From the NCBI RefSeq assembly GCF_014138285.1, contig NZ_JACGXN010000001.1:423314-487313 (forward strand): 64,000 nt of DNA. The letters run 5' to 3'. Positions 8,021 to 40,266 of the stretch are shown piece after piece. The position numbers were made by a program, and so were the translations under genes. The first letter of the stretch is position 1. Each line of letters starts with the position of its first letter. The notes under the pieces were generated by a model, which saw only the letters and a program-made list of their open reading frames with translations, was not told the origin of the DNA and ran no database searches. Source of the DNA: Phyllobacterium myrsinacearum (GTDB lineage Bacteria; Pseudomonadota; Alphaproteobacteria; Rhizobiales; Rhizobiaceae).

Positions 8021-8142
8021 CGTGCGTGGTTCGACAAGCTCACCATGAGGGAGAGTGGGGATTGCAGGGAGCTAGGTTCTGCAAAGTTGCAGGCTGGTTT
8101 GCACCTACCATGTCCCTCATGGTGAGCTTATCGAACCACGAA
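8021..8142. repeat. Interspersed inverted-repeat element B, copy 1
   Basis: Left arm CGTGGTTCGACAAGCTCACC...GAGGGA (about 8025-8053) and right arm TCCCTCATGGTGAGCTTATC...ACG (about 8113-8140) are near-perfect inverted copies with about 60 bp between them. The same arms frame 29541-29717, and fragments occur near 26611 and 40291. The spacer also matches the copy at 29.6 kb in inverted orientation. It lies in the 404-bp gap between the thiolase and betI, which otherwise holds only the BetI-like operator. Confidence 0.8.
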
Positions 8143-28306: not shown

Positions 28307-29428
28307 TTATGGATGGGTTTGGCCAAGGGGGCGAGACAGAATCTGGCTGAGAGCCGTAATGGCGGCGCGGGCGAAGTCCGGCTTGGCGGACGCGCCCATA
28401 TGGCCGATGCGCAACAGCTTGCCTGCAGTGTCGGCGCGGCCAAGCGACAGCAGAATGCCATGCTCGTCACGCAACCGGTCACGCAGTGCGGTATCGCTGA
28501 AACCATCGGGCAGTTTGAAAGCTGTTGTCGTGGGCGCGCAGAACTCCAGCTTTTTCGGCCACAGCTTCAGGCCAAGCTCGAGCAGACCGTTGCGCGTGAT
28601 CTCTGCCGTTTCCGCATGGCGGGCCCAGACGTTTTCGGCGCCCTCTCCGGCATAGAGATCAAGCGCAGCATCCAGCGCGTAGATTTCGGCGATGGACGGC
28701 GTCACCGGAAAGGGCTTGCCCGGTTCCGAAGCGCCTTTCCAACCCAAAAGGCTGAGAAACGACCCACGCGGTGCATCCGGATTGGCCTCGATCTTGGCCC
28801 AGGCCCGCTCACTCACACTGATGAGGCTCAGGCCCGGCGTGCTGCCAAGGCATTTCGATGGGGAGGTGATGAAAATATCGACATGCGCCTCACGCGGATG
28901 AACATCCATCCCGCCAAAGGACGACACCGCATCGACAATGAGAAAGGCCCCGTGTTCGGCAACAACAGCACCGATTTCATTCAACGGATTGAGCGTGCCG
29001 GATGGCGTGTCGTGATGGCAGAGTGAGACAATCGTGATATCCGGGCGCTGGCGCAGCGCCTCGCGCACCGCCTGCGGGTCGATGATATCGTCATAGGGCA
29101 CGGCGAGCTCGACGACTTCCTTGCCATAGCGTGCGGCCCAGTTGGCAAATCCCTTGCCATAGACTCCGGAAACAAGGTTCAGAACCACATCGTCGCGGCC
29201 AATCAATGCGGCAGCGGCAGCTTCGATGCCAAGAATGGCTTCTCCCTGCATGATGACAGGCGCTGTGCCTTGCCGCAGCGCCAGCCGCAACTTCTCGATC
29301 ACGTCAGCATAGAAGCTCTGGAAGGCGGGATCATAATCATAAAGTATAGGCCTTCCGAGCGCGGCAAGCACTTGCGGATAGGCAGGAACGGGACCTGTGG
29401 TCAGCATCAGCGGCGGAATGGGGAGCAT
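28307..29428 (-). CDS. Class V aminotransferase, pyridoxamine-pyruvate/alanine-glyoxylate aminotransferase-like
   Basis: 373 residues from the ATG at 29428; a GTG at 29437 is possible. A fold-type-I PLP enzyme with the Schiff-base lysine in T-S-P-S-K-C-L-G. The N-terminal TTGPVPAYPQVLAALGRP, L-N-L-V-S-G-V-Y-G-K-G-F and C-H-H-D-T-P-S-G-T closely recall, from memory, Mesorhizobium pyridoxamine-pyruvate aminotransferase, which starts vitamin B6 degradation pathway I. Serine-glyoxylate or alanine-glyoxylate activity is the alternative. It is 13 bp upstream of the binding-protein gene and probably leads the operon. Confidence 0.8.
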   Translation of the reverse strand: MLPIPPLMLTTGPVPAYPQVLAALGRPILYDYDPAFQSFYADVIEKLRLALRQGTAPVIMQGEAILGIEAAAAALIGRDDVVLNLVSGVYGKGFANWAARYGKEVVELAVPYDDIIDPQAVREALRQRPDITIVSLCHHDTPSGTLNPLNEIGAVVAEHGAFLIVDAVSSFGGMDVHPREAHVDIFITSPSKCLGSTPGLSLISVSERAWAKIEANPDAPRGSFLSLLGWKGASEPGKPFPVTPSIAEIYALDAALDLYAGEGAENVWARHAETAEITRNGLLELGLKLWPKKLEFCAPTTTAFKLPDGFSDTALRDRLRDEHGILLSLGRADTAGKLLRIGHMGASAKPDFARAAITALSQILSRPLGQTHP

Positions 29429-29540
29429 GGGTCGCACTTTGAAATTTCATCCCATTCACGGGCGCAAATGGCACTCAAAGCAGACCATATTCTCGCTGCT
29501 GGTGGAAACCAAGAAAAACTATTTCAATATTTGAAAATGC

Positions 29541-29717
29541 GCTGGCAAAACCATCGTGCTTGATTCGTGGTTCGACAAGCTCACCATGAGGGAGAGTGGT
29601 GCTGTAAGGCTAGCAGGGGAGATTGCAGAATCGAGATATTGCAGAACCTGGCTCCCTGCAACCCACCCATCTCCCTCATGGCGAGCTTGTCGAACCACGC
29701 ACGATGGTTTTGCAGCC
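29541..29717. repeat. Interspersed inverted-repeat element B, copy 2
   Basis: 177-bp element with long imperfect arms: GGCAAAACCATCGTGC (from about 29544) to GCACGATGGTTTTGC (about 29698-29713), and inside them GTGGTTCGACAAGCTCACC to GGCGAGCTTGTCGAACCAC. The interior contains TTGCAGAACCTGGCTCCCTG, which matches the interior of copy 1 (8021-8142) in reverse orientation. It fills most of the gap between the aminotransferase and transglutaminase genes. Confidence 0.82.
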
Positions 29718-29718
29718 C

Positions 29719-30597
29719 TCACTCCAGCGGGATCACGTCGACCGATTGCTTTGCTTCCTGCGAACCGCTGGTTTTCAGCACCCCGACAATGGGCGAGACA
29801 TCGGCATAATCCCGGCCGTAACCCACGGTGATATGATCATTGCCGGCCATCATCGCATTGGTGGGGTCGAATTCCTGCCAGCCCGCTTCACGCCCGCACC
29901 AGGCGCGCACCCAGGCATGCATGGCGTCGGCACCTTCCAGCCGTTCCTTGCCGGGCGGCGGGATGGTGCGCAGAAAACCGCTGACATAGCCCGCCGGGAT
30001 ACCGATGCCGCGCAGGCCCGCAATCATGATGTGGCTGAAATCCTGACAGACCCCGGCGCGCAGGTCGAATGCTTCCCGCGCCGTGGTGCGCACATTGGTG
30101 GCGTCGGAATCGTAGGCGAAATCCGCATGGATGCGATTGCATAGATCGCTCGCCGCCTCCATGACCGTGCGCGTCTTGCCGAGACTTGCCGCGGCATAAC
30201 CGGTGATATCGGGATCGATGGCCGCATGGGCGCTTGAGGTCAGGAAATGGTGCGGCGCATCCGATGCCACCGACCAGACCCCGCGTATCTCTTTGGCCAG
30301 CCCGGCAATATCCGGCGAAACGTCGAGCATGGTCTGCGGCCGCGCCACATTGATGCGGGCGGTCATCGTCACATCGAGGGTTTCATGCGGATTGCGGTAG
30401 ACGATGGAGGTCACCGTATTGGCAAAGAAATCGGTGAAATCGGAGCGTTCCGCCGCTGAAGGGTCAAAGGACAGGCTGGAAGCGACCACGCGCTGGATGC
30501 CCGGCAGCGTCTGCGGCATCACGCGGATATGGTGGCGCCCGCCCGCTGCGGAGCGCTCGTAGTCATAATGCAGGTGAAGGCGGATATTATAGAGCAT
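29719..30597 (-). CDS. Transglutaminase-family protein (bacterial N-domain plus core)
   Basis: 292 residues. The N-terminal part (about 1-95) is the Bact_transglu_N beta domain starting MLYNIRLHLHYDYERSAAGG. The C-terminal core has an intact triad: Cys184 in R-A-G-V-C-Q-D-F-S-H, His227 in D-A-M-H-A-W-V-R-A-W and Asp244 in E-F-D-P-T-N. These enzymes act as papain-like proteases or amide-bond-forming transglutaminases. It is the third gene of a minus-strand cluster, 11 bp after the ATP-grasp/alpha-E gene, with GAGGTGGTG as its ribosome-binding site. Comparable clusters were predicted to make or cleave unusual peptide tags (Iyer et al. 2009). No signal peptide. Confidence 0.88.
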   Translation of the reverse strand: MLYNIRLHLHYDYERSAAGGRHHIRVMPQTLPGIQRVVASSLSFDPSAAERSDFTDFFANTVTSIVYRNPHETLDVTMTARINVARPQTMLDVSPDIAGLAKEIRGVWSVASDAPHHFLTSSAHAAIDPDITGYAAASLGKTRTVMEAASDLCNRIHADFAYDSDATNVRTTAREAFDLRAGVCQDFSHIMIAGLRGIGIPAGYVSGFLRTIPPPGKERLEGADAMHAWVRAWCGREAGWQEFDPTNAMMAGNDHITVGYGRDYADVSPIVGVLKTSGSQEAKQSVDVIPLE

Positions 30598-30608
30598 TCT
30601 TCACCACC

Positions 30609-33005
30609 TCAGGCAAAATACGTGTCGGAGATGGTATCGGACAGCGCGCCGATTTCACTGGCAAGATCATGCAGTGTGTCGGCGGTCAGTTCACTCGATT
30701 CCATGATGGCAAGCTGCGTGTGAAGACGCAGCACATCCTTGGAAAAGGCGGGCATATGCGCACCCGCCTCGCGCTGCGGCAACAGGTTGAACTCGGTTTT
30801 GAGCGCATCCAGCTGGAAAATGATCGAGCGGGGATTGAGCGGGTCAAGCGCCAGAAGGTCAAGCACGCTCAGACGCCCGGAATAGACGCTGTACTGCCGC
30901 CGGTGCGTCATGACGCTGTCGCCGATTTCCAGCAGCATTTCCAACGCACCTTCCGGCGCTTCATGCCGCGACAGGTTCGCGAGGATACGCGCCATCTGGA
31001 TACCGCGTTCCAGCCTGCGGCCGATTTCAAGGAAACGCCATCCGGTGAAACGATACATGTTTTCATGCACCAGACCGGAGAACCCGGCGAGCTTGCGCAG
31101 GATAATGGTCATGGCGCGGGTGCCGTCATCGCCCTGCGAGACGACATCCTGAAAACGGTGAACGGTCTTTGACAGATCGCGCAATGCCAGCCAGCCATCG
31201 GGCGAGAAACGGTCGCGGATACGCCCGGCACTCAGCATGGCGCCATCGATGGAGCGCAAGAGCCCCTTTGGAACGGCCTCATCAAGGTCGATACCCATCG
31301 GCTTGAGCTGATCACGCATTTCCGTCAACAGCGGCAACTCCGCATTGGCGGTCTCGGCATAGCGGGCATGACAGGCCCGCAGAATACGCGCCGTGGCTTC
31401 CGCACGCTCGATATAGCGCCCCATCCACATCAGGTTTTCGGCTGCACGGCTCGGCAGCGTGCCCGGCACGTTGCGGCGGAAGGCGTCATCCTCGCGCGGC
31501 AGCAGCGTGTCCTTGCGCACGGGTGCCGAACTGGTGATCCACACATCCGCCGCCTGGCCGCCGCGCTGCATGGCGATTGCGGCCGTGTCGAGCGTGAAAC
31601 CAACGCGGGCAAAACCGCCCGGCATGAAACTCCAGCCATCGCGGTGGCGCGCTGCAAAGACGCGCAGGACAAAGGGGCGCGGTTCCAGCTTGCCGTCCAC
31701 ATAGACCGGCGTCGTCGACAGTTTGACTGCTTCCTGACCAACCAGTCCGCGACCATCGGTCTGCAGTTTCTGCAGCAATGCCTGACGCGCCGCGTCGTCC
31801 AGCGCAGAACCCAGAACCGTGGCCTGCACATCTTCAAACGGCAACCGCGTCGACAGCGCCGGACCGACCATCATCTGGTCCAACCGCTTTATCACCTGCT
31901 GCCGTTCCTTCTCCTGACCGCACCACCACGTGGCAATGCTGGGCAAGGCGAGATCACGGTCGTGCAGGGCTTTGGAAATCGCGGGAAGGAAGGCGAGCAA
32001 TGCCCGGGTTTCAAGAATGCCCGATCCCAGCGCATTGACCAGCGAGACGGAACGTTGGCGCAGCGCGCCAACCATGCCTGGTGTGCCGATCCACGAATCC
32101 GATTTCAGTTCCAGCGGGTCCATATAGGCGGCATCCATGCGCCGCCATAAGACGTCGATGGGCTTGAGGCCGGAAACGGTACGCACCATGACCCTGCCCT
32201 TGCTGACGGTCAGGTCATCGCCCTCCAGCAGCATGATGCCGAGATAACGGGCGATATAGGCGTGTTCGAAATAGGTTTCGTTGTTCGGTCCCGGCGTGAG
32301 AATAGCCGCGCGGCCTGCAGGATCATGGATCAGGCTCTGCAGGGAATCGCGGAAATCCTTGAAGAACCCGGCGAGGCGATGAACATTCATCGCCGTGGAA
32401 ATATCCGATAATGCCCGGGTGGTGGCAACACGGTTTTCCAGCGCAAATCCGGCACCCGAGGGCGCCTGCGTGCGGTCACCCAGCACCCACCACTGGCCAT
32501 TCGGTGCGCGCCCGAGCTCAAAGGCGCAGAAATGCAGGAAATGCCCGCTCGCAGGTTTGATACCGGCTACGGGATGCAGGAACTCCGGGTTCGACGCGAT
32601 CAGATCCGGCGGCAGCAGCCCATCGCGCACCAGCCGGTTGTCGCCATAGATATCGGCAACAATATCCTCCAGAAGATCGGCGCGCTGGGTCAACCCTGTC
32701 GTGATGGCGCGCCAATCATCCTCGTTGATGAGAATCGGGATATGGGCGAGCGGCCATTCGCGCTCCTGTGTCCCGGTCTCGTCATAGACACGGTAAAACA
32801 CACCCGCGTCGTGCAGATACTGATTGGCACGGGCAAAACGGGTGGCGAGCTTGTCGGGGCCGAGGGTGTCGAGCGAGCGCAGCAGCTTTTCCCAACCGGG
32901 CCGGACAGCCCCGTCGGGATCAATCATCTCATCCGCGACGCCCTGCAGCGGCTTGTAGCCCGCGAGAAGACCGGAGGGCGGGGTGGATTTCACACTCTGT
33001 GACAT
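30609..33005 (-). CDS. Circularly permuted ATP-grasp protein fused to alpha-E domain
   Basis: 798 residues. About 80-490 is the circularly permuted type-2 ATP-grasp module (DUF404/DUF407), with N-E-D-D-W-R, F-E-L-G-R-A-P-N-G-Q-W-W-V-L-G-D-R, L-T-P-G-P-N-N-E-T-Y-F-E-H and F-V-L-R-V-F-A-A-R. From about 517 the all-helical alpha-E (DUF403) domain begins (SRAAENLMWMGRYIERAEA) and runs to the C-terminus. ATP-grasp enzymes make carboxylate-amine bonds via acyl-phosphates. Many genomes carry the two domains as separate genes; here they are fused. It is between the two transglutaminase genes, preceded by palindromic element A. Confidence 0.9.
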   Translation of the reverse strand: MSQSVKSTPPSGLLAGYKPLQGVADEMIDPDGAVRPGWEKLLRSLDTLGPDKLATRFARANQYLHDAGVFYRVYDETGTQEREWPLAHIPILINEDDWRAITTGLTQRADLLEDIVADIYGDNRLVRDGLLPPDLIASNPEFLHPVAGIKPASGHFLHFCAFELGRAPNGQWWVLGDRTQAPSGAGFALENRVATTRALSDISTAMNVHRLAGFFKDFRDSLQSLIHDPAGRAAILTPGPNNETYFEHAYIARYLGIMLLEGDDLTVSKGRVMVRTVSGLKPIDVLWRRMDAAYMDPLELKSDSWIGTPGMVGALRQRSVSLVNALGSGILETRALLAFLPAISKALHDRDLALPSIATWWCGQEKERQQVIKRLDQMMVGPALSTRLPFEDVQATVLGSALDDAARQALLQKLQTDGRGLVGQEAVKLSTTPVYVDGKLEPRPFVLRVFAARHRDGWSFMPGGFARVGFTLDTAAIAMQRGGQAADVWITSSAPVRKDTLLPREDDAFRRNVPGTLPSRAAENLMWMGRYIERAEATARILRACHARYAETANAELPLLTEMRDQLKPMGIDLDEAVPKGLLRSIDGAMLSAGRIRDRFSPDGWLALRDLSKTVHRFQDVVSQGDDGTRAMTIILRKLAGFSGLVHENMYRFTGWRFLEIGRRLERGIQMARILANLSRHEAPEGALEMLLEIGDSVMTHRRQYSVYSGRLSVLDLLALDPLNPRSIIFQLDALKTEFNLLPQREAGAHMPAFSKDVLRLHTQLAIMESSELTADTLHDLASEIGALSDTISDTYFA

Positions 33006-33014
33006 GGATTACGA

Positions 33015-33175
33015 TACCCCCCTCTGGGCTGTCGCCCGTCTCCCCCGCAAGGGGGGAGATCACATCGGCATCGATGGTGTTGTTCAAGCTTCAACAGTAA
33101 AGGTTGCCTGAAACAATAATGAAGGCCGATCTCCCCCCTTGCGGGGGAGATGCCCGACAGGGCAGAGGGGGGTGA
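33015..33175. repeat. Palindromic intergenic element A, copy 2
   Basis: About 161 bp with outer arms CCCCCCTCTGGGCTGTCG / GACAGGGCAGAGGGGGG and inner arms CTCCCCCGCAAGGGGGGAG / CTCCCCCCTTGCGGGGGAG. It occupies the 198-bp gap between the DUF2126 gene and the ATP-grasp gene, so a transcript across this operon would carry a large hairpin. Confidence 0.88.
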
Positions 33176-33203
33176 AATCTCCACGTCCATCAATCGCACG
33201 ACC

Positions 33204-36200
33204 TCAATGCCTTGGCCTTCTCAGATCAAGGGTCATCGGAAATTCACCCGATGGCTGTTCCCTGCGCAATTCATATCCCCCTGCCGTATGGCCGCGCGGC
33301 TCGAAACGCGCAAGCCGGCGCGCTTCAGCCTCGTTCGAGTTGACCGGGAACGTATCATAGCTGCGCCCGCCGGGGTGTGCGACATGATAGACGCAACCGC
33401 CAATCGCGCGTTGCGACCACTGGTCGTAAATATCGAAGACCAGCGGCGTGTTGACAGGAATCATCGGATGCAGGCCGGAGCGCGGCTGCCACGCCTTGTA
33501 GCGCACCCCGGCAACTGCCGTGCCCTGGCTGTCCGTCATTTTCAGCGGCACCTCGCGGCCGTTGCAGGCCACGCTGTAACGCGCCGGGTTGAAACCGTCG
33601 ACCTTGACCTGAAGCCGTTCCACCGATGAATCGACGAAGCGCACCGTGCCGCCGATGGCACCCTGCTCGCCCATGACATGCCACGGCTCCAGCGCCTGCC
33701 GGATTTCCAGCTTCACGCCTTCATTTTCGATTTCGCCGCAGAAGGGAAAGCGGAACTCCAGCTGTGCTTCAAACCATTCCGGCCGGAAATCAAAGCCGTT
33801 CTCGCGCAGGTCGGCGAGAACATCGAGGAAATCCTGCCAGACAAAGGCCGGCAGCATGAAGCGGTCATGCAGCGACGTTCCCCAGCGGACAAAGTTGCCC
33901 TGAATCGGGTTGTTCCAGAACCGGGCGATCAGCGCGCGGATCAGCAATTGCTGGGCAAGACTCATACGTGCATTGGGCGGCATCTCGAAACCGCGGAACT
34001 CGACCAGACCGAGCCTCCCCGTGGGACCATCGGGCGAGAACAGCTTGTCGATGCAGATTTCCGAACGATGCGTGTTGCCGGTGACATCCACCAGCAGATT
34101 GCGGAACAGCCGGTCGACCAGCCATGGCAAAGGCGGCGTGCCTTCGCCCGGCCGGGGCACCTGAGCCAAGGCGATTTCCAGCTCGTACATACTGTCGTGC
34201 CGCGCCTCGTCGATGCGCGGCGCCTGACTGGTTGGACCGATGAACAGGCCGGAGAACATGTAGGACAGCGATGGATGGCGCTGCCAGTGCAGGACAAGGC
34301 TTTTCAGCAGATCAGGGCGGCGCAGGAACGGGCTGTTGGCAGGCGTTTCACCGCCGACCACCACATGGTTGCCGCCGCCGGTGCCCGTATGACGGCCATC
34401 GATCATGAATTTATCGGCACCGAGACGCGTCTCCCGCGCTTCCTCATAGATCGCGGTCGTCGTCTCCACGCAGTCGCGCCAGTTGGTGGCCGGGTGGATA
34501 TTCACCTCGATCACACCCGGATCCGGCGCAACGCGGATGACGCTGACGCGAGGATCCTGCGGCGGGCCATAGCCTTCGATATGCACCGGCAGGCCCAGTT
34601 TGTGGGCAGCAGCTTCTGCAGCCGCCACCAGTTCCAGATAGTCTTCAAGCGCCTCGACCGGCGGCATGAACACGCTGAGGCGCCCATCCCTCGGCTCCAC
34701 CGATATGGCGGTGCGCACTGCCCCGCCGATTTCACCGAGTTCCTGCTCCACCCTCTCCTGCTGATTGCCTTCAGCCGCGGTAAAGGACGCGACGGCCAAT
34801 GTGCTTTCACGCGGCTGCGGCGCGGTGCGCGGTAAGGGCTCCGGCAATGCTCCACGATCCACCGAAGGATCGACCGGAACGATATAGGGATACTCAGAAG
34901 CCGGAACATGCGGCAGGGCACCAAGCGGCAGACGGTATCCGACAGGCGAATCCCCCGGCACAAGAAACAGCTTGCCGCGCCGTGTCTTCCATTTCTCGCT
35001 GCGCCAGCGCGGCCCTGACGCCTGACTGTTCCAGCGTTGCACCGGCAGGACAAAGCCGCTCGGTTCGGTCAGACCGCGTTCAAAAACCCGGGCGATACGG
35101 CTGCGCTCTTCCGGGTCCTTTAGTTTTGAGTTGGAGGGATCGACATTGTCAGGGAGATTGCCTTCCTTGACGATCCATTCGGCGGGATCCTCGTAGGCGG
35201 GCGCGACCATCTCCTCTTCAACGCCAAGCTCTTCCGCCAATGCGACGAGAAGTTTCCCGGCATCTTCCGGCTTGACGTCAACCGTGCTGTTCTCGGGCGC
35301 GATCAGATCGGGGTTGACCCAGATCGGCTTGCCGTCCTTGCGCCAGTAGAGCGAGAACGTCCAGCGCGGCAGGCTCTCGCCCGGATACCATTTGCCCTGC
35401 CCGTAATGCAGAAAACCGCCCGGGGCGAAGCGCTCACGCAACCGGCGGATCAGCTTGTCGGCCTTTTCCCGCTTCGTCGGCCCCACCGCATCGGTGTTCC
35501 ATTCGCCCGATTCAAAATCATCGATGGACACGAATGTGGGCTCGCCGCCCATGGTCAGGCGCACATCCCGCTCTTTCAGGATGGCATCCACCTTTTCACC
35601 GAGAGCATCGAGCGCATTCCAGGATTCGTCCGAAAACGGTTTGGTGATGCGCGGATGCTCGGACACACGCGTCACGCGCATATCGAAACCGAATTCCACG
35701 TTGGCGAATTCCGCCATGCCGGAAATGGGTGCTGCGTTGCGGTAATGCGGCGTGGCGGCAAGCGGCACGTGGCTTTCGCCGGTCAGGAGCCCTGACGTAG
35801 GATCAAGGCCGATCCAGCCTGCCCCCGGCAGATAGACTTCGCACCATGCGTGGAGATCGGTAAAATCCTTGTCCGTTCCGGCGGGACCATCGATGGCGAC
35901 GAGATCAGGCTTCAGCTGGATGAGGTAGCCGGAGACAAACCGCGCAGCCAACCCGAGATTGCGCAGAACCTGCACCAGCAGCCAGCTTGAATCCCGGCAC
36001 GATCCCGAACGCAGGTTCAATGTGGCATCGGGCTCCTGAACGCCGGTTTCCATGCGGATGACATAGCCGATCTCGCGCTGGATACGTGCGTTGAGATCAA
36101 CCACGAAATTCACTGTGTTGGTGGGCGTGCGATCAATCGTTTCGAGGAACGCGGAAACGAGCGGCCCCGCCGGTTCCGGTTTCATGTAGATCGACAGATC

Positions 36201-36536
36201 GTCGCTTATCTCTTCGGGATAGCTGAAGGGCCAAGTCTCGGCGACCGGTTCGACAAAGAAGTCGAACGGATTGTAGACTGTCATGTCGGCAACGAGATCA
36301 ACCTCGATTTTCAGTTCCGTAACCGGTTCGGGAAAGACAAAACGGGCGAGGAAATTGCCGTAGGGATCCTGCTGCAGGTTGACGAAATGATTGGCCGGAC
36401 TGACTTTCAGGGAATGGCTGAGAACCTTGGTTCTGGAATGGGGCGCTGGCTGGAGCCGGATAATCTGCGGCCCGAGCATGATGGGCCGGTCATACTTGTA
36501 ATGCGTCAGGTGATAGACTGCTGCGTGAATTGCCAT
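33204..36536 (-). CDS. DUF2126 protein with N-terminal transglutaminase domain
   Basis: 1110 residues. Residues about 1-110 are a transglutaminase N domain; the core follows with triad Cys180 (R-S-G-S-C-R-D-S-S), His229 (D-L-H-A-W-C-E-V-Y) and Asp245 (I-G-L-D-P-T-S-G). From about 340 the large DUF2126 (COG4196) region starts at L-T-M-G-G-E-P-T-F, and includes [20 protein letters not shown] and [11 protein letters not shown]. Published analysis placed this region near glutamine-synthetase/GCS-like COOH-NH2 ligases, so one polypeptide may combine amide ligation and cleavage. The start has GAGGCGAC. It is first in the three-gene cluster; no signal peptide, so cytoplasmic. Confidence 0.9.
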
Positions 36537-36642: not shown

Positions 36643-36699
36643 GCCTCAAAAATTGCCGCATAAACGTGCTTGCAACAATGCATCTGCCCGCATAGCATC

Positions 36700-36890
36700 C
36701 GCGCCGATGGTTTCTCCGGCAAGACAACGCGGGAGATGAAAAGGGAACACGGTGAGGCGTACCCAAAAGGGACCGAGACCGTGGCTGCCCCCGCAACTGT
36801 AAGCGATGAGCGACGCCTGACATGCCACTGACCGCAAGGTCGGGAAGGCAAGGCGAAGCAAGGATCCGCGAGCCAGGAGACCTGCCATCA
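36700..36890 (+). promoter_or_regulatory. Cobalamin (AdoCbl) riboswitch
   Basis: Contains the family's conserved blocks in order: GATGGTTTCTCCGGC-type 5' stem, AAAAGGGAACACGGTGAGG, the B12-box-type GCCACTG...GGGAAGGC segment (GCCACTGACCGCAAGGTCGG), and the closing GCCAGGAGACCTGCC near 36870-36886. It lies upstream of the DUF1636/BtuFCD-like operon, about 120 bp before its first start, and should shut expression off when adenosylcobalamin is plentiful. Ends are approximate. Confidence 0.93.
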
Positions 36891-37008
36891 TATCTAGAAT
36901 TCGAACCGGACGGGGTGTGCCGGGAGCGATGCGATGTTTCCCGCGCATGGTTCGCGTTGATGCATTGTCTGCGTTCCCTGACCTTTGTTCGAGAAACAAT
37001 GGACAGGC

Positions 37009-37365
37009 ATGACGACCGCCAACCACCAGATTATTGTCTGCACCCTGTGCAAGGCCACCGACGGCCTGTCGCGGCCGGGACAGCAACTTGTCGACAGGCT
37101 TCAGGCCGAACTCGGTGACCATCTCGCCTATGAGGTGCGTGGCGTTGGCTGCATGGCGGGTTGCGAACGCCCGTGCACAGTGGCGTTCCGCGCACCTGAC
37201 AAAGCGCAGTATCTCTTCGGCGACATCGACCCTGATATAGACTTTACCGATCTCGTCGATTTTGCCCGGATATATCGCGACCTTACCGACGGCTGGTCCA
37301 AGGCGTCGCAACGCCCGCAAGGCCTTTACGACAAGACACTCGCACGCATTCCGGCGCACCTATGA
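37009..37365 (+). CDS. DUF1636 family Cys-rich metal-binding-type protein
   Basis: 118 residues from the ATG at 37009, with GGACAGG upstream. It has C-T-L-C-K near the N-terminus and C-M-A-G-C-E-R-P-C in the middle, resembling thioredoxin-like ferredoxin motifs. DUF1636 genes are repeatedly found in cobalamin-regulated loci of alphaproteobacteria. The role is unproven; binding of a metal, cobalt complex or iron-sulfur cluster is plausible. It is first after the riboswitch, followed by the ABC importer. Confidence 0.8.
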   Translation: MTTANHQIIVCTLCKATDGLSRPGQQLVDRLQAELGDHLAYEVRGVGCMAGCERPCTVAFRAPDKAQYLFGDIDPDIDFTDLVDFARIYRDLTDGWSKASQRPQGLYDKTLARIPAHL

Positions 37366-37492
37366 CATATCAAGCATTGACCAATGTTATAACGTTACTA
37401 TACGACAACGATACACCGACAATAGCGCAACGGAATTTACCGGTTTGGGATCTGACACCATGTGCCTTGCCTGCAGTGACGGATATCCGTCC

Positions 37493-38299
37493 ATGAGCCA
37501 CCTCGCCCTGCGCGCCGACGAGGTGACGTTCCGCACCTCGGGCCAAATGCTCGTAGACGACGTATCGCTCGACATCGTGCGCGGTGCGCGTCTTGCCATC
37601 ATCGGACCGAACGGTGCAGGGAAATCGACGCTTCTGCGTATGCTGGCCGGTCTGCTGCGTCCCACCTCCGGCCGCATCTATTTCGGCAATACGGCCATCG
37701 ACCGGCTTTCGTCGAAGGAAAGAGCCAAAAAGTTTGCCTTCGTCGGTCAGAGTGATGCGCCGGACCCGCAGTTGCTGGTGGAGGATTATGTGTCTTTCGG
37801 CCGCATTCCGCATATTGGCACCCTGACCAGAGCGAAAGATCACGACATCGTGGCGGAGGCCTTGTTTCGCGCCAGGATCGCCGCGTTTTCGCGCCGTCCC
37901 ATCGGTTCACTCTCTGGCGGAGAAAGACAGCGTGTACAACTGGCGCGTGCCATCGCCCAGCAGCCGGACATCCTGTTTCTGGATGAGCCCACCAATCATC
38001 TCGATCCGAAGGCGCGCAGCGAACTTTTGGCGCTCGTCGCCGGCCTCGACGTGACGACCATCGCAGTGCTGCACGATCTGCCGCTGGTCGCACCATTCGC
38101 CACCCATGTCGCCGTCATGCATAGCGCCCAACTGGTTGCATCAGGCACTCCCGATGAAACGCTGACGCCGCGTATCGTCAGCGACGTCTTTGATCTCGAT
38201 GTCCTGCGCCTGCGTCATCCCTCGCAGGATCGCGATCTCATGGTGTTCGAAGCACCAGAGCCAACAACAAAACAAACTGCTCAGTTACGGAGAATTTGA
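37493..38299 (+). CDS. ABC transporter ATPase, BtuD/FecE-like
   Basis: 268 residues from the ATG at 37493 (MSHLALRADEVTF). A longer start at 37460, with MCLACSDGYPS, is possible. Walker A is I-I-G-P-N-G-A-G-K-S-T-L, the signature is L-S-G-G-E-R-Q-R-V, and Walker B is I-L-F-L-D-E-P-T-N-H-L-D. The type is the iron-siderophore/heme/vitamin B12 class. The stop overlaps the start of the binding-protein gene (TGATG). With the riboswitch upstream, corrinoid import is the natural reading. Confidence 0.88.
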   Translation: MSHLALRADEVTFRTSGQMLVDDVSLDIVRGARLAIIGPNGAGKSTLLRMLAGLLRPTSGRIYFGNTAIDRLSSKERAKKFAFVGQSDAPDPQLLVEDYVSFGRIPHIGTLTRAKDHDIVAEALFRARIAAFSRRPIGSLSGGERQRVQLARAIAQQPDILFLDEPTNHLDPKARSELLALVAGLDVTTIAVLHDLPLVAPFATHVAVMHSAQLVASGTPDETLTPRIVSDVFDLDVLRLRHPSQDRDLMVFEAPEPTTKQTAQLRRI

Positions 38300-39246
38300 T
38301 GAAAAGAATATTGCTCGCCCTCGCATTGTCGGCGCTATCAGCACCCGCCTGGGCGTTTCCTGTCACGGTGGATAGTTGTGGCAAGCCCCTCACTTTTGAT
38401 TCAGCGCCCAAACGTGCAGTCGTTCAGGACATCAATATGAGCGAAATGGCCTTCGCCCTACACCTGCAGTCCTCGATGGTTGGCGTATCCGGCATTACCG
38501 GCTGGTACAAGCTGGACGACGCGTTCAAGAAACAGCAGGGCTCCATTCCCGAGCTTGCGCCCAAATATCCGACCCTTGAAAATCTTATCGCGGTTGAACC
38601 CGATTTCTTCTTTGCCGGCTGGAATTACGGCATGAAGCCGGGCGGTGAAGTCACCCCCGACACGCTGGCGCCGCATGGCATCAAGACGCTCGAACTGACC
38701 GAAAGCTGTATCCATCTCGACAAGAATCGGCCTGCCGCCTCGATGGATCTGCTCTATGGCGACATGGAAAAGCTGGGCAAGATTTTCGATAGGGAAGACG
38801 AGGCCAACAAACTGGTCAACGACTGGAAGGCAGAGCTTGCCGCGATCAAGACCAAGATTGGTGACAAGAACGGCACCCGCGTCTTCCTTTACGATTCCGG
38901 CGAGGACAAGCCGTTCACGGCGGGCAAGTTCGCCATACCGACGGCGATGATCAGCGAAGCCGGGGGCACCAACATCATGGCCGATCTCGACACCAGCTGG
39001 GGCACCACCTCGTGGGAAACCGTTGCGACACGCAATCCGGAATTCCTTGTCCTTCTGGATTATCAGGATGATGCGGGCTACCAGAAGCTGCTCGACTTCC
39101 TCAAGTCCCATCCGGCGATGAAGGAAACCGATGCGGTCAAGAACAACCGCTTTGTTGCCCTGCGTTACGCCGAACTCACGCCCGGCCCGGCCAATATCGA
39201 AGCGATTGCCAAGATGGCCAAGGCCATGCATCCGGAAGCCTTCTGA
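38299..39246 (+). CDS. Periplasmic binding protein, BtuF/FhuD-like
   Basis: 315 residues with a Sec signal peptide (MKRILLALALSALSAPAWAF, cleavage after A-W-A). The mature part is a class III helical-backbone binding protein: V-D-S-C-G-K-P-L-T-F-D-S-A-P-K-R-A-V-V-Q-D, then L-I-A-V-E-P-D-F-F-F-A-G-W-N-Y-G, then E-F-L-V-L-L-D-Y. The start follows CGGAGA and overlaps the ATPase stop. Ligand is inferred as a corrinoid from the riboswitch; a cobalt or iron chelate is the alternative. Confidence 0.85.
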   Translation: MKRILLALALSALSAPAWAFPVTVDSCGKPLTFDSAPKRAVVQDINMSEMAFALHLQSSMVGVSGITGWYKLDDAFKKQQGSIPELAPKYPTLENLIAVEPDFFFAGWNYGMKPGGEVTPDTLAPHGIKTLELTESCIHLDKNRPAASMDLLYGDMEKLGKIFDREDEANKLVNDWKAELAAIKTKIGDKNGTRVFLYDSGEDKPFTAGKFAIPTAMISEAGGTNIMADLDTSWGTTSWETVATRNPEFLVLLDYQDDAGYQKLLDFLKSHPAMKETDAVKNNRFVALRYAELTPGPANIEAIAKMAKAMHPEAF

Positions 39247-40266
39247 GTGCATCTGCCTGTCCGTCAGCATCTGACACTTATGACGGGGGTGGTGGCCATT
39301 CTGGCCCTCGCCCTCGTATCCATTGCCTATGGCGCGACGGTTATTCCGCTCGGCGATGTGCTGCGCGCCCTCACCCATGCCGCTGGTCTCTCCGATACCG
39401 CCGTCAACGGTCCGGTCGGCAAGATCATCGTCGATCTGCGCCTGCCTCGGGTCATCCTAGCCATTTGCGTTGGCGCTGGGCTCGGTGTCATCGGCGCGCT
39501 GCTGCAAACCGTCACCCGGAATGATCTCGCCGATCCGTTCCTGTTTGGACTGTCCAACGGCGCTGCGGCTGGTGCAGTCTCGGTCATCACGGTCATCGGC
39601 GACCGCTTCGGCATCTGGACGCTGCCGGTTGCCGCGTTCTGCGGCGGCATGCTGGCGGCCATTGTCGTGCTGATGCTGGTACGGCGCGTGCAGGGACAGG
39701 GCCCGGAACGGCTGATCCTGGCTGGTCTTGCCGTCTCCTTCCTGTTTGCCGCGCTGACCAATTACATGGTGTTTGCCGGCGACCAGCGCGCCGCCCATTC
39801 CGTGATGTTCTGGACGCTCGGCGGCCTTGGTCTTGCCCGCTGGGAAAACCTGCCGCTCGCCCTTGTCGGGCTAGCCGCTATCCTCATCTACGCCCTTTAC
39901 AACCATCGCAATCTCGACGCCCTGCTGGCGGGCGAAAACACGGCGGAAAGCCTTGGCATAAGGGTGACCCGCATCCGTAATACGGTGTTCATCGTCTGTG
40001 CCTTCTCTACCGCGATTTTTGTCTCGGTGGCGGGCGTCATCGGCTTCGTTGGCCTGATGATCCCGCATATTGCCCGGCGTTTTTCGGGTCAGCTGCATGC
40101 GGGATTGATTGTTACCTGTGCCCTGCTCGGGGCCCTGCTGATCCTGCTCAGCGATCTTGCTGCCCGCCTGCTGCTGGCACCGCAGGAATTGCCGATCGGC
40201 ATTGTCACGAGTTCAATCGGTGCGTTTTTTGTGGTGACGATTTTGTTGAGAAAGCGGCCGGGGTAG
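39247..40266 (+). CDS. ABC transporter permease, BtuC/FecD-like
   Basis: 339-residue permease of the FecCD/BtuC family with about ten helices. Motifs: R-L-P-R-V-I-L-A-I-C-V-G-A-G-L-G-V-I-G-A-L-L-Q-T, then N-D-L-A-D-P-F-L-F-G-L-S-N-G-A-A, and G-F-V-G-L-M-I-P-H-I-A-R. The start is GTG immediately after the binding-protein stop, so the order riboswitch, DUF1636, ATPase, binding protein, permease forms one operon. Confidence 0.9.
   Translation: MHLPVRQHLTLMTGVVAILALALVSIAYGATVIPLGDVLRALTHAAGLSDTAVNGPVGKIIVDLRLPRVILAICVGAGLGVIGALLQTVTRNDLADPFLFGLSNGAAAGAVSVITVIGDRFGIWTLPVAAFCGGMLAAIVVLMLVRRVQGQGPERLILAGLAVSFLFAALTNYMVFAGDQRAAHSVMFWTLGGLGLARWENLPLALVGLAAILIYALYNHRNLDALLAGENTAESLGIRVTRIRNTVFIVCAFSTAIFVSVAGVIGFVGLMIPHIARRFSGQLHAGLIVTCALLGALLILLSDLAARLLLAPQELPIGIVTSSIGAFFVVTILLRKRPG

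Follow-up and report, generated by a model that had tools for sequence, protein, structure and literature searches.

The DUF2126 cluster and its genes

We analyzed a stretch of 64,000 nucleotides from Phyllobacterium myrsinacearum (RefSeq assembly GCF_014138285.1, contig NZ_JACGXN010000001.1, positions 423,314 to 487,313 of the forward strand; below, the window, with positions counted from its first letter). It contains a cluster of three genes on one strand, which encode a transglutaminase-DUF2126 protein, a fusion of a circularly permuted (CP) ATP-grasp domain with an alpha-E domain, and a stand-alone transglutaminase-like protein. The genes and their parts, with the evidence in brackets, are as follows.

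33204-36536, minus strand: transglutaminase-DUF2126 protein of 1110 amino acids (aa), putatively an ATP-dependent amide ligase that also carries a Cys-His-Asp domain (open reading frame (ORF) call, Pfam)
35799-36518, minus strand: its N-terminal transglutaminase part, residues 7-246, triad C180/H229/D245 (Pfam; triad in 78/78 aligned homologues)
33219-35705, minus strand: its DUF2126 domain, residues 278-1106, with a predicted glutamine-synthetase-like fold (Pfam, AlphaFold2 (AF2) model, fold searches)
30609-33005, minus strand: fused CP-ATP-grasp and alpha-E protein of 798 aa (ORF call, Pfam, AF2 model)
31533-32933, minus strand: its ATP-grasp-fold domain, residues 25-491, probably catalytically degenerate (alignments, motif counts, fold searches)
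32472-32480, minus strand: G-D-R at residues 176-178, replacing the Mg/ATP-binding E-x-N (ExN) motif (alignment)
31821-31874, minus strand: residues 378-395, at the place of the K...GGYG ATP loop (alignment)
31668-31670, minus strand: V446, where split paralogues have the aspartate of DxR (alignment)
30615-31457, minus strand: alpha-E domain, residues 517-797, ER motifs retained (Pfam, alignment)
29719-30597, minus strand: stand-alone transglutaminase-like protein of 292 aa, triad C184/H227/D244 (ORF call, Pfam; triad in 73/73 aligned homologues)

All Pfam matches in the three proteins exceeded the curated cut-offs. The 1110-aa protein scored 1355 bits for DUF2126 (PF09899; cut-off 27), together with Transglut_core (57.5 bits) and Bact_transglu_N; this combination of DUF2126 with an N-terminal transglutaminase assigns the cluster to the DUF2126 operon type. 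The 798-aa protein matched CP_ATPgrasp_2 (452 bits) and Alpha-E (204 bits), and the 292-aa protein Bact_transglu_N and Transglut_core, while NCBIfam assigned no family to any of the three. The initial annotation, made from the letters and ORFs alone, had described the same one-strand layout, the same domains and two intact triads, all of which the ORF and Pfam data bear out. Both Cys-His-Asp triads, which place these domains in the Transglutaminase-like superfamily, are present in every aligned homologue; the 78 homologues of the first are the 80 Pseudomonadota DUF2126 loci described below minus L083 and L087, where the gene is split between ORFs. In L083, DUF2126 is spread over two overlapping ORFs. 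In L087, separate ORFs encode the transglutaminase and a short DUF2126 of 713 aa, and the fused gene was not found at that locus.

DUF2126 was present in 120 of 398 sampled Pseudomonadota genomes. The locus sample comprised 79 fetched loci and the window; at 72 of these 80, the fused gene lay within the examined stretch. Hence the fusion is the normal form of this operon type. The fusion that the initial annotation had singled out is real, but it is no peculiarity of this genome: the three-gene set is not a chance occurrence, and the window cluster is an ordinary member of its kind. At the genome level, 112 of the 120 DUF2126-positive genomes have a fused-type copy (incomplete in G153 and G085), and eight have none (G345, G036, G049, G064, G076, G097, G212, and G267).

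The fused ATP-grasp domain

We compared the motifs of fused ATP-grasp domains with those of split paralogues, in which ATP-grasp and alpha-E are separate genes. The first set comprised 27 split and 72 fused copies, and the second came from 80 loci of a genome collection and two plasmids. Three copies first labelled split (L120, L144, and L153) lacked the motifs and were counted as fused: L120 is a fused gene ending at a contig end, and L144 and L153 encode proteins of 863 and 852 aa with a missed alpha-E domain. Over residues 61-360, 127 of the 129 fused and all 72 split copies are distinct, the identical pairs being L076/L103 and L102/L182.

The Mg/ATP motif ExN, which forms the Mg/ADP site in glutathione synthetase (PMC11117183), was found in 72/72 split and 0/129 fused copies. 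The aspartate of DxR showed the same distribution (72/72 and 0/129), and the GGxG loop was present in 72/72 split copies and one of the 129 fused ones. In the window protein, G176-D177-R178 stand at ExN, GGxG is absent, and V446 occupies the position of the DxR aspartate; its ATP-grasp domain is 31% identical to the split copy of the same genome, with an alignment gap at the loop. Given these losses, the fused ATP-grasp is probably a pseudoenzyme that no longer has an ATP site. Its public annotation, "circularly permuted type 2 ATP-grasp protein," may therefore mislead.

Still, the domain seems to be retained for another role rather than decaying, as some of its segments are conserved and it has residues specific to the fused clade. 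The largest drop in mean conservation, from 0.70 in split to 0.37 in fused copies, falls on columns 361-400, while columns 136-180 and 216-335 score 0.67 in fused copies and 0.77 and 0.78, respectively, in split ones. R178 (109 of 128 fused copies, L120 left out), Q180 (110), E299 (123), and W361 (117) are conserved in the fused clade only. Within each group, 21 columns are near-invariant, and the letters differ between the groups at one of them, S166. In a tree of 80 of the 200 rows, all fused copies fell on one side and all split copies on the other with 100/100 support; motif columns were kept in, and the fused rows L097 and L111 were flagged as long branches.

The fold is also retained. 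The AF2 model of the fused protein (predicted local distance difference test score, pLDDT, 89.4; predicted template modelling score, pTM, 0.85) matched PDB 3n6x with Z 42.5 over 443 aligned residues at a root-mean-square deviation (rmsd) of 3.2, which identifies an ATP-grasp fold. Matches to glutathione synthetases had Z of about 21-24, and those to glutathionylspermidine synthetase about 20. Thus, the fused domain shares its fold with these enzymes (PDB 3n6x, 2hgs, 2io7) but lacks the ExN motif, the glycine-rich ATP loop with its lysine, and the DxR aspartate that its split paralogue has, the first two being features expected of a catalytic ATP-grasp ligase. For the alpha-E part, no trustworthy fold match was found, most rows from 27 on being mixed helical proteins. 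An hhalign comparison of the split ATP-grasp profile with the single Gss sequence of Escherichia coli K-12 gave no match.

Several observations count against the loss of activity. The loop lysine, present in 72/72 split copies, persists in 64 of the 129 fused ones, and the arginine of DxR, likewise invariant in split copies, in 127 of 129. Columns 401-430 (0.50 in fused vs. 0.72 in split copies) and 431-470 (0.53 vs. 0.78) are likewise less conserved in the fused group, so the drift is not limited to the loop. Moreover, peptide aminoacyl-tRNA ligases (PEARLs), thought to be derived from ATP-grasp enzymes, also replace the Asn, and the Glu can be dispensable (PMC11117183); altered motifs are no proof of inactivity. 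The fused domain could accordingly be a working ligase with altered chemistry that uses, for example, aminoacyl-tRNA or another donor. The PEARL precedent, the fold (Z 42.5 with 3n6x and about 24 with glutathione synthetases), the near-invariant columns, and the fused-clade residues all agree with this, but ExN and the DxR aspartate are lost in 129/129 and the GGxG loop in 128/129 copies, and conservation is relaxed in the loop segment, which makes such an enzyme unlikely. The initial annotation had read the domain as a working ATP-grasp ligase, which the data do not support. The loss of ATP- and metal-binding residues across homologues, which it had named as evidence against its own proposal, is seen in the ATP-grasp module and is not seen in DUF2126.

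A second gene set in the same genome

Contig C2 of the same genome carries, in a row, a split ATP-grasp (470 aa), an alpha-E protein (313 aa), a transglutaminase (268 aa), and an Anbu-like relative of the proteasome (243 aa; PF00227, 36.6 bits). The C2 ATP-grasp aligns over its full length with PDB 3n6x and has an intact VKEVHGSGGYG loop and EDN. No Anbu-like gene was found in the window: both PF00227 matches of the genome are outside it, one of them after the C2 split set. The window cluster is therefore not an Anbu operon, as it lacks both an Anbu gene and an ATP-grasp with intact motifs, the intact copy being the one on C2.

The occurrence of DUF2126 is nested within that of Alpha-E. All 120 DUF2126-positive genomes have Alpha-E, in two (107 genomes), one (9), three (3), or four (1) copies, and none of the 186 Alpha-E-negative genomes has DUF2126; with 92 further genomes having Alpha-E only, Fisher's test yields 2e-43, uncorrected for phylogeny. 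With the genome's own split copy as the query, a split-type ATP-grasp was found at at least 48% identity in 120/120 DUF2126-positive Pseudomonadota genomes. Fused-type copies are well apart at 26-39% identity to this query, and G069 has an additional 485-aa copy at 38%. We also searched 27 genomes behind loci without a Pseudomonadota organism in their titles; 25 had the split type at at least 41%.

The two sets can also be adjacent. In Burkholderia cenocepacia (L199), six genes follow one another: ATP-grasp, alpha-E, transglutaminase, DUF2126, fused protein, and transglutaminase. Anbu-like ORFs were located in 20 of the 162 DUF2126 stretches, and a plasmid of Enterobacter combines five genes of both modules. 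This plasmid (L196; Enterobacter roggenkampii, 90.7 kb, IncFII-typed) has the split genes and DUF2126 as a five-gene cassette; the fetched stretch also contains IS110, IS6, and IS26-like transposase genes and arsC, and this setting suggests transfer of the cassette.

These data bear on the completeness of the pathway. The initial annotation had proposed a self-contained, complete ligase-plus-hydrolase pathway, in which two ATP-using ligases (DUF2126 and the fused ATP-grasp) and the peptidases act on one peptide tag. The three genes do stand together at most loci (fused gene at 72/80), and the triads are intact. However, the ATP-grasp is degenerate, and each of the 120 DUF2126-positive Pseudomonadota genomes also has a split-type ATP-grasp, either nearby or at another locus, so that we consider self-containment very improbable. 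As the fused ATP-grasp seems to have no ATP site, the window set is probably an add-on to the second set; as a pathway it appears incomplete, given the split set elsewhere in this genome and the split ATP-grasp in 120/120 genomes.

DUF2126 as the candidate ligase

Six DUF2126 residues, E332, E677, N679, H724, E846, and R848, are conserved in 78/78 aligned homologues and invariant in a 25-row alignment that includes other phyla. Judged by motif resemblance, they are candidate counterparts of the metal/ATP residues of glutamine synthetase. In a VIA search with the AF2 model, all 50 rows belonged by title to the glutamine synthetase superfamily (Z 12.4-13.8), with the top match at Z 13.8 covering 285 of 848 residues at an rmsd of 4.5, which points to a glutamine synthetase/GCS2 fold. 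Of the 513 Foldseek matches, the best 50 included 49 whose titles name YbdK or a relative of glutamine synthetase; the remaining one, 1tt4, is titled a predicted glutathione synthase. The top match was YbdK (E 2.1e-3, probability 0.99). The comparison with GCS/glutamine-synthetase folds suggested by the initial annotation thus gave a positive result, albeit with a model of medium quality. On the basis of the conserved residues and the modelled fold, DUF2126 is likely the ATP-using amide ligase of the set. For the same reasons, amide-bond chemistry, as previously envisaged, is likely.

The reaction could also run in the opposite direction. In pupylation, the bond that PafA forms is hydrolysed by its homologue Dop (PMC7947786), and DUF2126 could likewise be a deligase, with the whole set salvaging nitrogen from peptides or amides. 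Two cysteine-protease-like domains in the cluster, the Anbu relative at the second locus, and the tie to nitrogen limitation described below would fit. We hold this to be improbable, Pfam naming DUF2126 a putative amidoligase, although our data do not bear on direction. In the literature search, we found no mention of DUF2126 and no function assigned to it.

Apparent link to nitrogen limitation

Allowing at most one mismatch, we found sigma-54-like sites in front of 21 of 72 split ATP-grasp genes; among 163 DUF2126 ORFs (with L083 entering twice), 29 have one. In the controls, such sites preceded 23 of 1310 other ORFs and occurred in 5 of 815 random windows; of 128 fused genes, one has such a site. 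Many of the matches come from related loci.

Published data point in the same direction. In B. cenocepacia H111, I35_5080-5083 are common sigma-54/NtrC targets, with fold changes of -6.0 to -9.4 in the ntrC mutant; they are annotated as DUF404/407 (I35_5080), DUF403 (5081), transglutaminase-like (5082), and a "large protein containing transglutaminase-like domain" (5083) (PMC5491218). From the gene order in L199, I35_5083 would be the DUF2126 gene. In Pseudomonas putida, genes upregulated under nitrogen limitation include PP_2686-2688 (PMC7801951), PP_2685-2687 (PMC3325844), and PP_2685 and PP_2688 (PMC8050072); by annotation, PP_2685-2688 are an Anbu-type set. A study of marine metagenomes found a correlation between urea-metabolism domains and DUF403, DUF404, DUF407, and Bact_transglu_N (PMC3597751). 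Both modules are thus apparently tied to nitrogen limitation by sigma-54-like sites in other genomes and by the NtrC data. Nitrogen control in P. myrsinacearum itself would be an extrapolation, as the published NtrC dependence comes from one species.

Comparison with known systems

The kind of system considered here has already been predicted. Iyer et al. in 2009 reportedly proposed a peptide-tagging system of CP-ATP-grasp, a glutamine-synthetase-like ligase, alpha-E, and an Ntn hydrolase, the same families as here, and are said to have termed DUF2126 a putative amidoligase. Rv2566/Rv2567 of Mycobacterium tuberculosis are presumably actinobacterial members. A partial literature check, with Iyer et al. 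2009 outside it, yielded no earlier report of an inactive ATP-grasp in this family. The count of pseudoenzymes, the nested occurrence, and the connection of DUF2126 with NtrC were worked out here; we do not claim that they are unpublished.

Among the closest known systems is the Anbu operon, with a homologous ATP-grasp fold, alpha-E, and transglutaminase (PMC6376114, PMC5666114), as in the C2 set. It has a split, intact ATP-grasp followed by an Anbu-like gene, whereas the window cluster has a fused, degenerate ATP-grasp and DUF2126 and lacks the Anbu-like gene. The core ATP-grasp of Yersinia bercovieri releases phosphate from ATP, and for Anbu neither peptidase activity nor a specific complex was detected (PMC6376114). 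RimK/RimB and rlo operons share the logic of an ATP-grasp combined with a peptidase, and the transglutaminase domain of rloB is inactive (PMC12239564). The rlo operons differ in their RimK-like ATP-grasp (RloC, 24% identical to RimK) and retropepsin-like proteases, and the main text describing them does not mention alpha-E (PMC12239564).

The pupylation enzymes PafA and Dop have a glutamine-synthetase fold, and pupylation is linked to nitrogen starvation. The system studied here resembles pupylation, in which PafA and Dop act with a proteasome (PMC3511204, PMC7947786), in having an enzyme modelled with this fold, a proteasome-like partner, and an apparent link to nitrogen starvation. Unlike in pupylation, no Pup-like gene was found across lineages: the gene-neighbourhood survey for a small co-conserved substrate gave no cross-lineage candidate among ORFs of 28-90 aa near the operons, the largest groups comprising ten loci, seven titled Pseudomonas, and a tag gene away from the operon lying outside this search. 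One such group (L076, 14552-14734, minus strand, and nine other loci, seven of the ten titled Pseudomonas) encodes a small charged protein of about 60 aa with a basic start and an acidic end, in L076 convergent with the last gene of the operon; it is a weak tag candidate.

Neighbouring genes and other elements

Two genes flanking the cluster were rejected as partners by comparison with 162 other stretches, 161 of which contain DUF2126. The flanking SBP_bac_5 gene has relatives in only three of them (L049, L058, and L109). The adjoining gene at 28307-29437 (minus strand), a pyridoxamine-pyruvate transaminase equivalog (628 bits, cut-off 600), has a relative in only one (L091). In a wider clustering of neighbours, the 25 largest groups were viewed, and representatives of six were searched with Pfam; the largest group, with 38 loci, looks like antisense ORFs. 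Another group is a 417-aa protein with no Pfam match (L133, 6656-7906, plus strand), located upstream of DUF2126 (median -1.2 kb) on the same strand in 7/7 loci.

A Cobalamin riboswitch (RF00174, 130.6 bits) lies at 36691-36903 (plus strand), divergent from the operon, and precedes the genes of a BtuFCD-like ABC transporter (37262-40266). In addition, a palindromic repeat element occurs at 29545-29713, just downstream of the operon, and at 8028-8137. The 24-base core of its arm has 91 + 91 occurrences in the genome and none in a reversed control; one of these follows the Anbu-like gene of C2 at a distance of about 60 bases.

A two-part model

The reading that we favour, with a probability of roughly 0.6, is an amide-bond system for nitrogen scarcity that has two halves, the window cluster being the accessory one, with DUF2126 as a ligase and the fused protein as a non-catalytic scaffold. 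The core half would be the C2 set, comprising the intact split ATP-grasp, alpha-E, transglutaminase, and the Anbu-like protein. Within the accessory half, DUF2126 would be the ATP-using ligase, and the fused protein an ATP-grasp paralogue that has kept the fold and lost the nucleotide/Mg site. Its most likely role, together with its alpha-E domain, would be to hold a peptide or protein substrate and dock DUF2126 or the core enzymes. Trimming or transfer of the product may fall to the two transglutaminase-like domains, as cysteine peptidases or acyl-transferases. We infer the reaction and its direction, the scaffold role, and the substrate; the chemistry is unproven.

A number of observations weigh against this model. 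The fused gene is not nearby at eight of the 80 DUF2126 loci; four of these genomes (G392, G191, G338, and G397) have a fused copy elsewhere, and G345, G036, G076, and G267 show none at all, so the fused protein is not strictly needed. G411 and G423, reached via loci L157 and L192 of metagenome-assembled genomes, showed only the fused type. The motif check of split copies covered the 72 that lie in fetched loci rather than all 120 genomes. The DUF2126 model has a pLDDT of 73.1, and with it Foldseek gave no match at E 0.001. The co-occurrence and promoter counts ignore phylogeny, the 1310 control ORFs are unverified, and neither of the two operons of P. myrsinacearum has a sigma-54-like site within the threshold.

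A more specific version, which we regard as rather doubtful, is a Pup-like conjugation system that is widespread and serves during nitrogen starvation. In it, DUF2126 would be a protein-tag ligase of the glutamine-synthetase fold, the dead ATP-grasp/alpha-E protein, having diverged a single time from the lineage of the core ligase, would be its substrate receptor, and the tag would be supplied or removed by the Anbu module.

The two-part model turns a vague prediction into a testable one that involves two loci and is linked to nitrogen: it names a likely ligase, considers the fused ATP-grasp probably inactive, and links the cluster to a second module. It would concern many bacteria, as DUF2126 occurs in almost a third of the sampled Pseudomonadota genomes (120/398) and in several other phyla.

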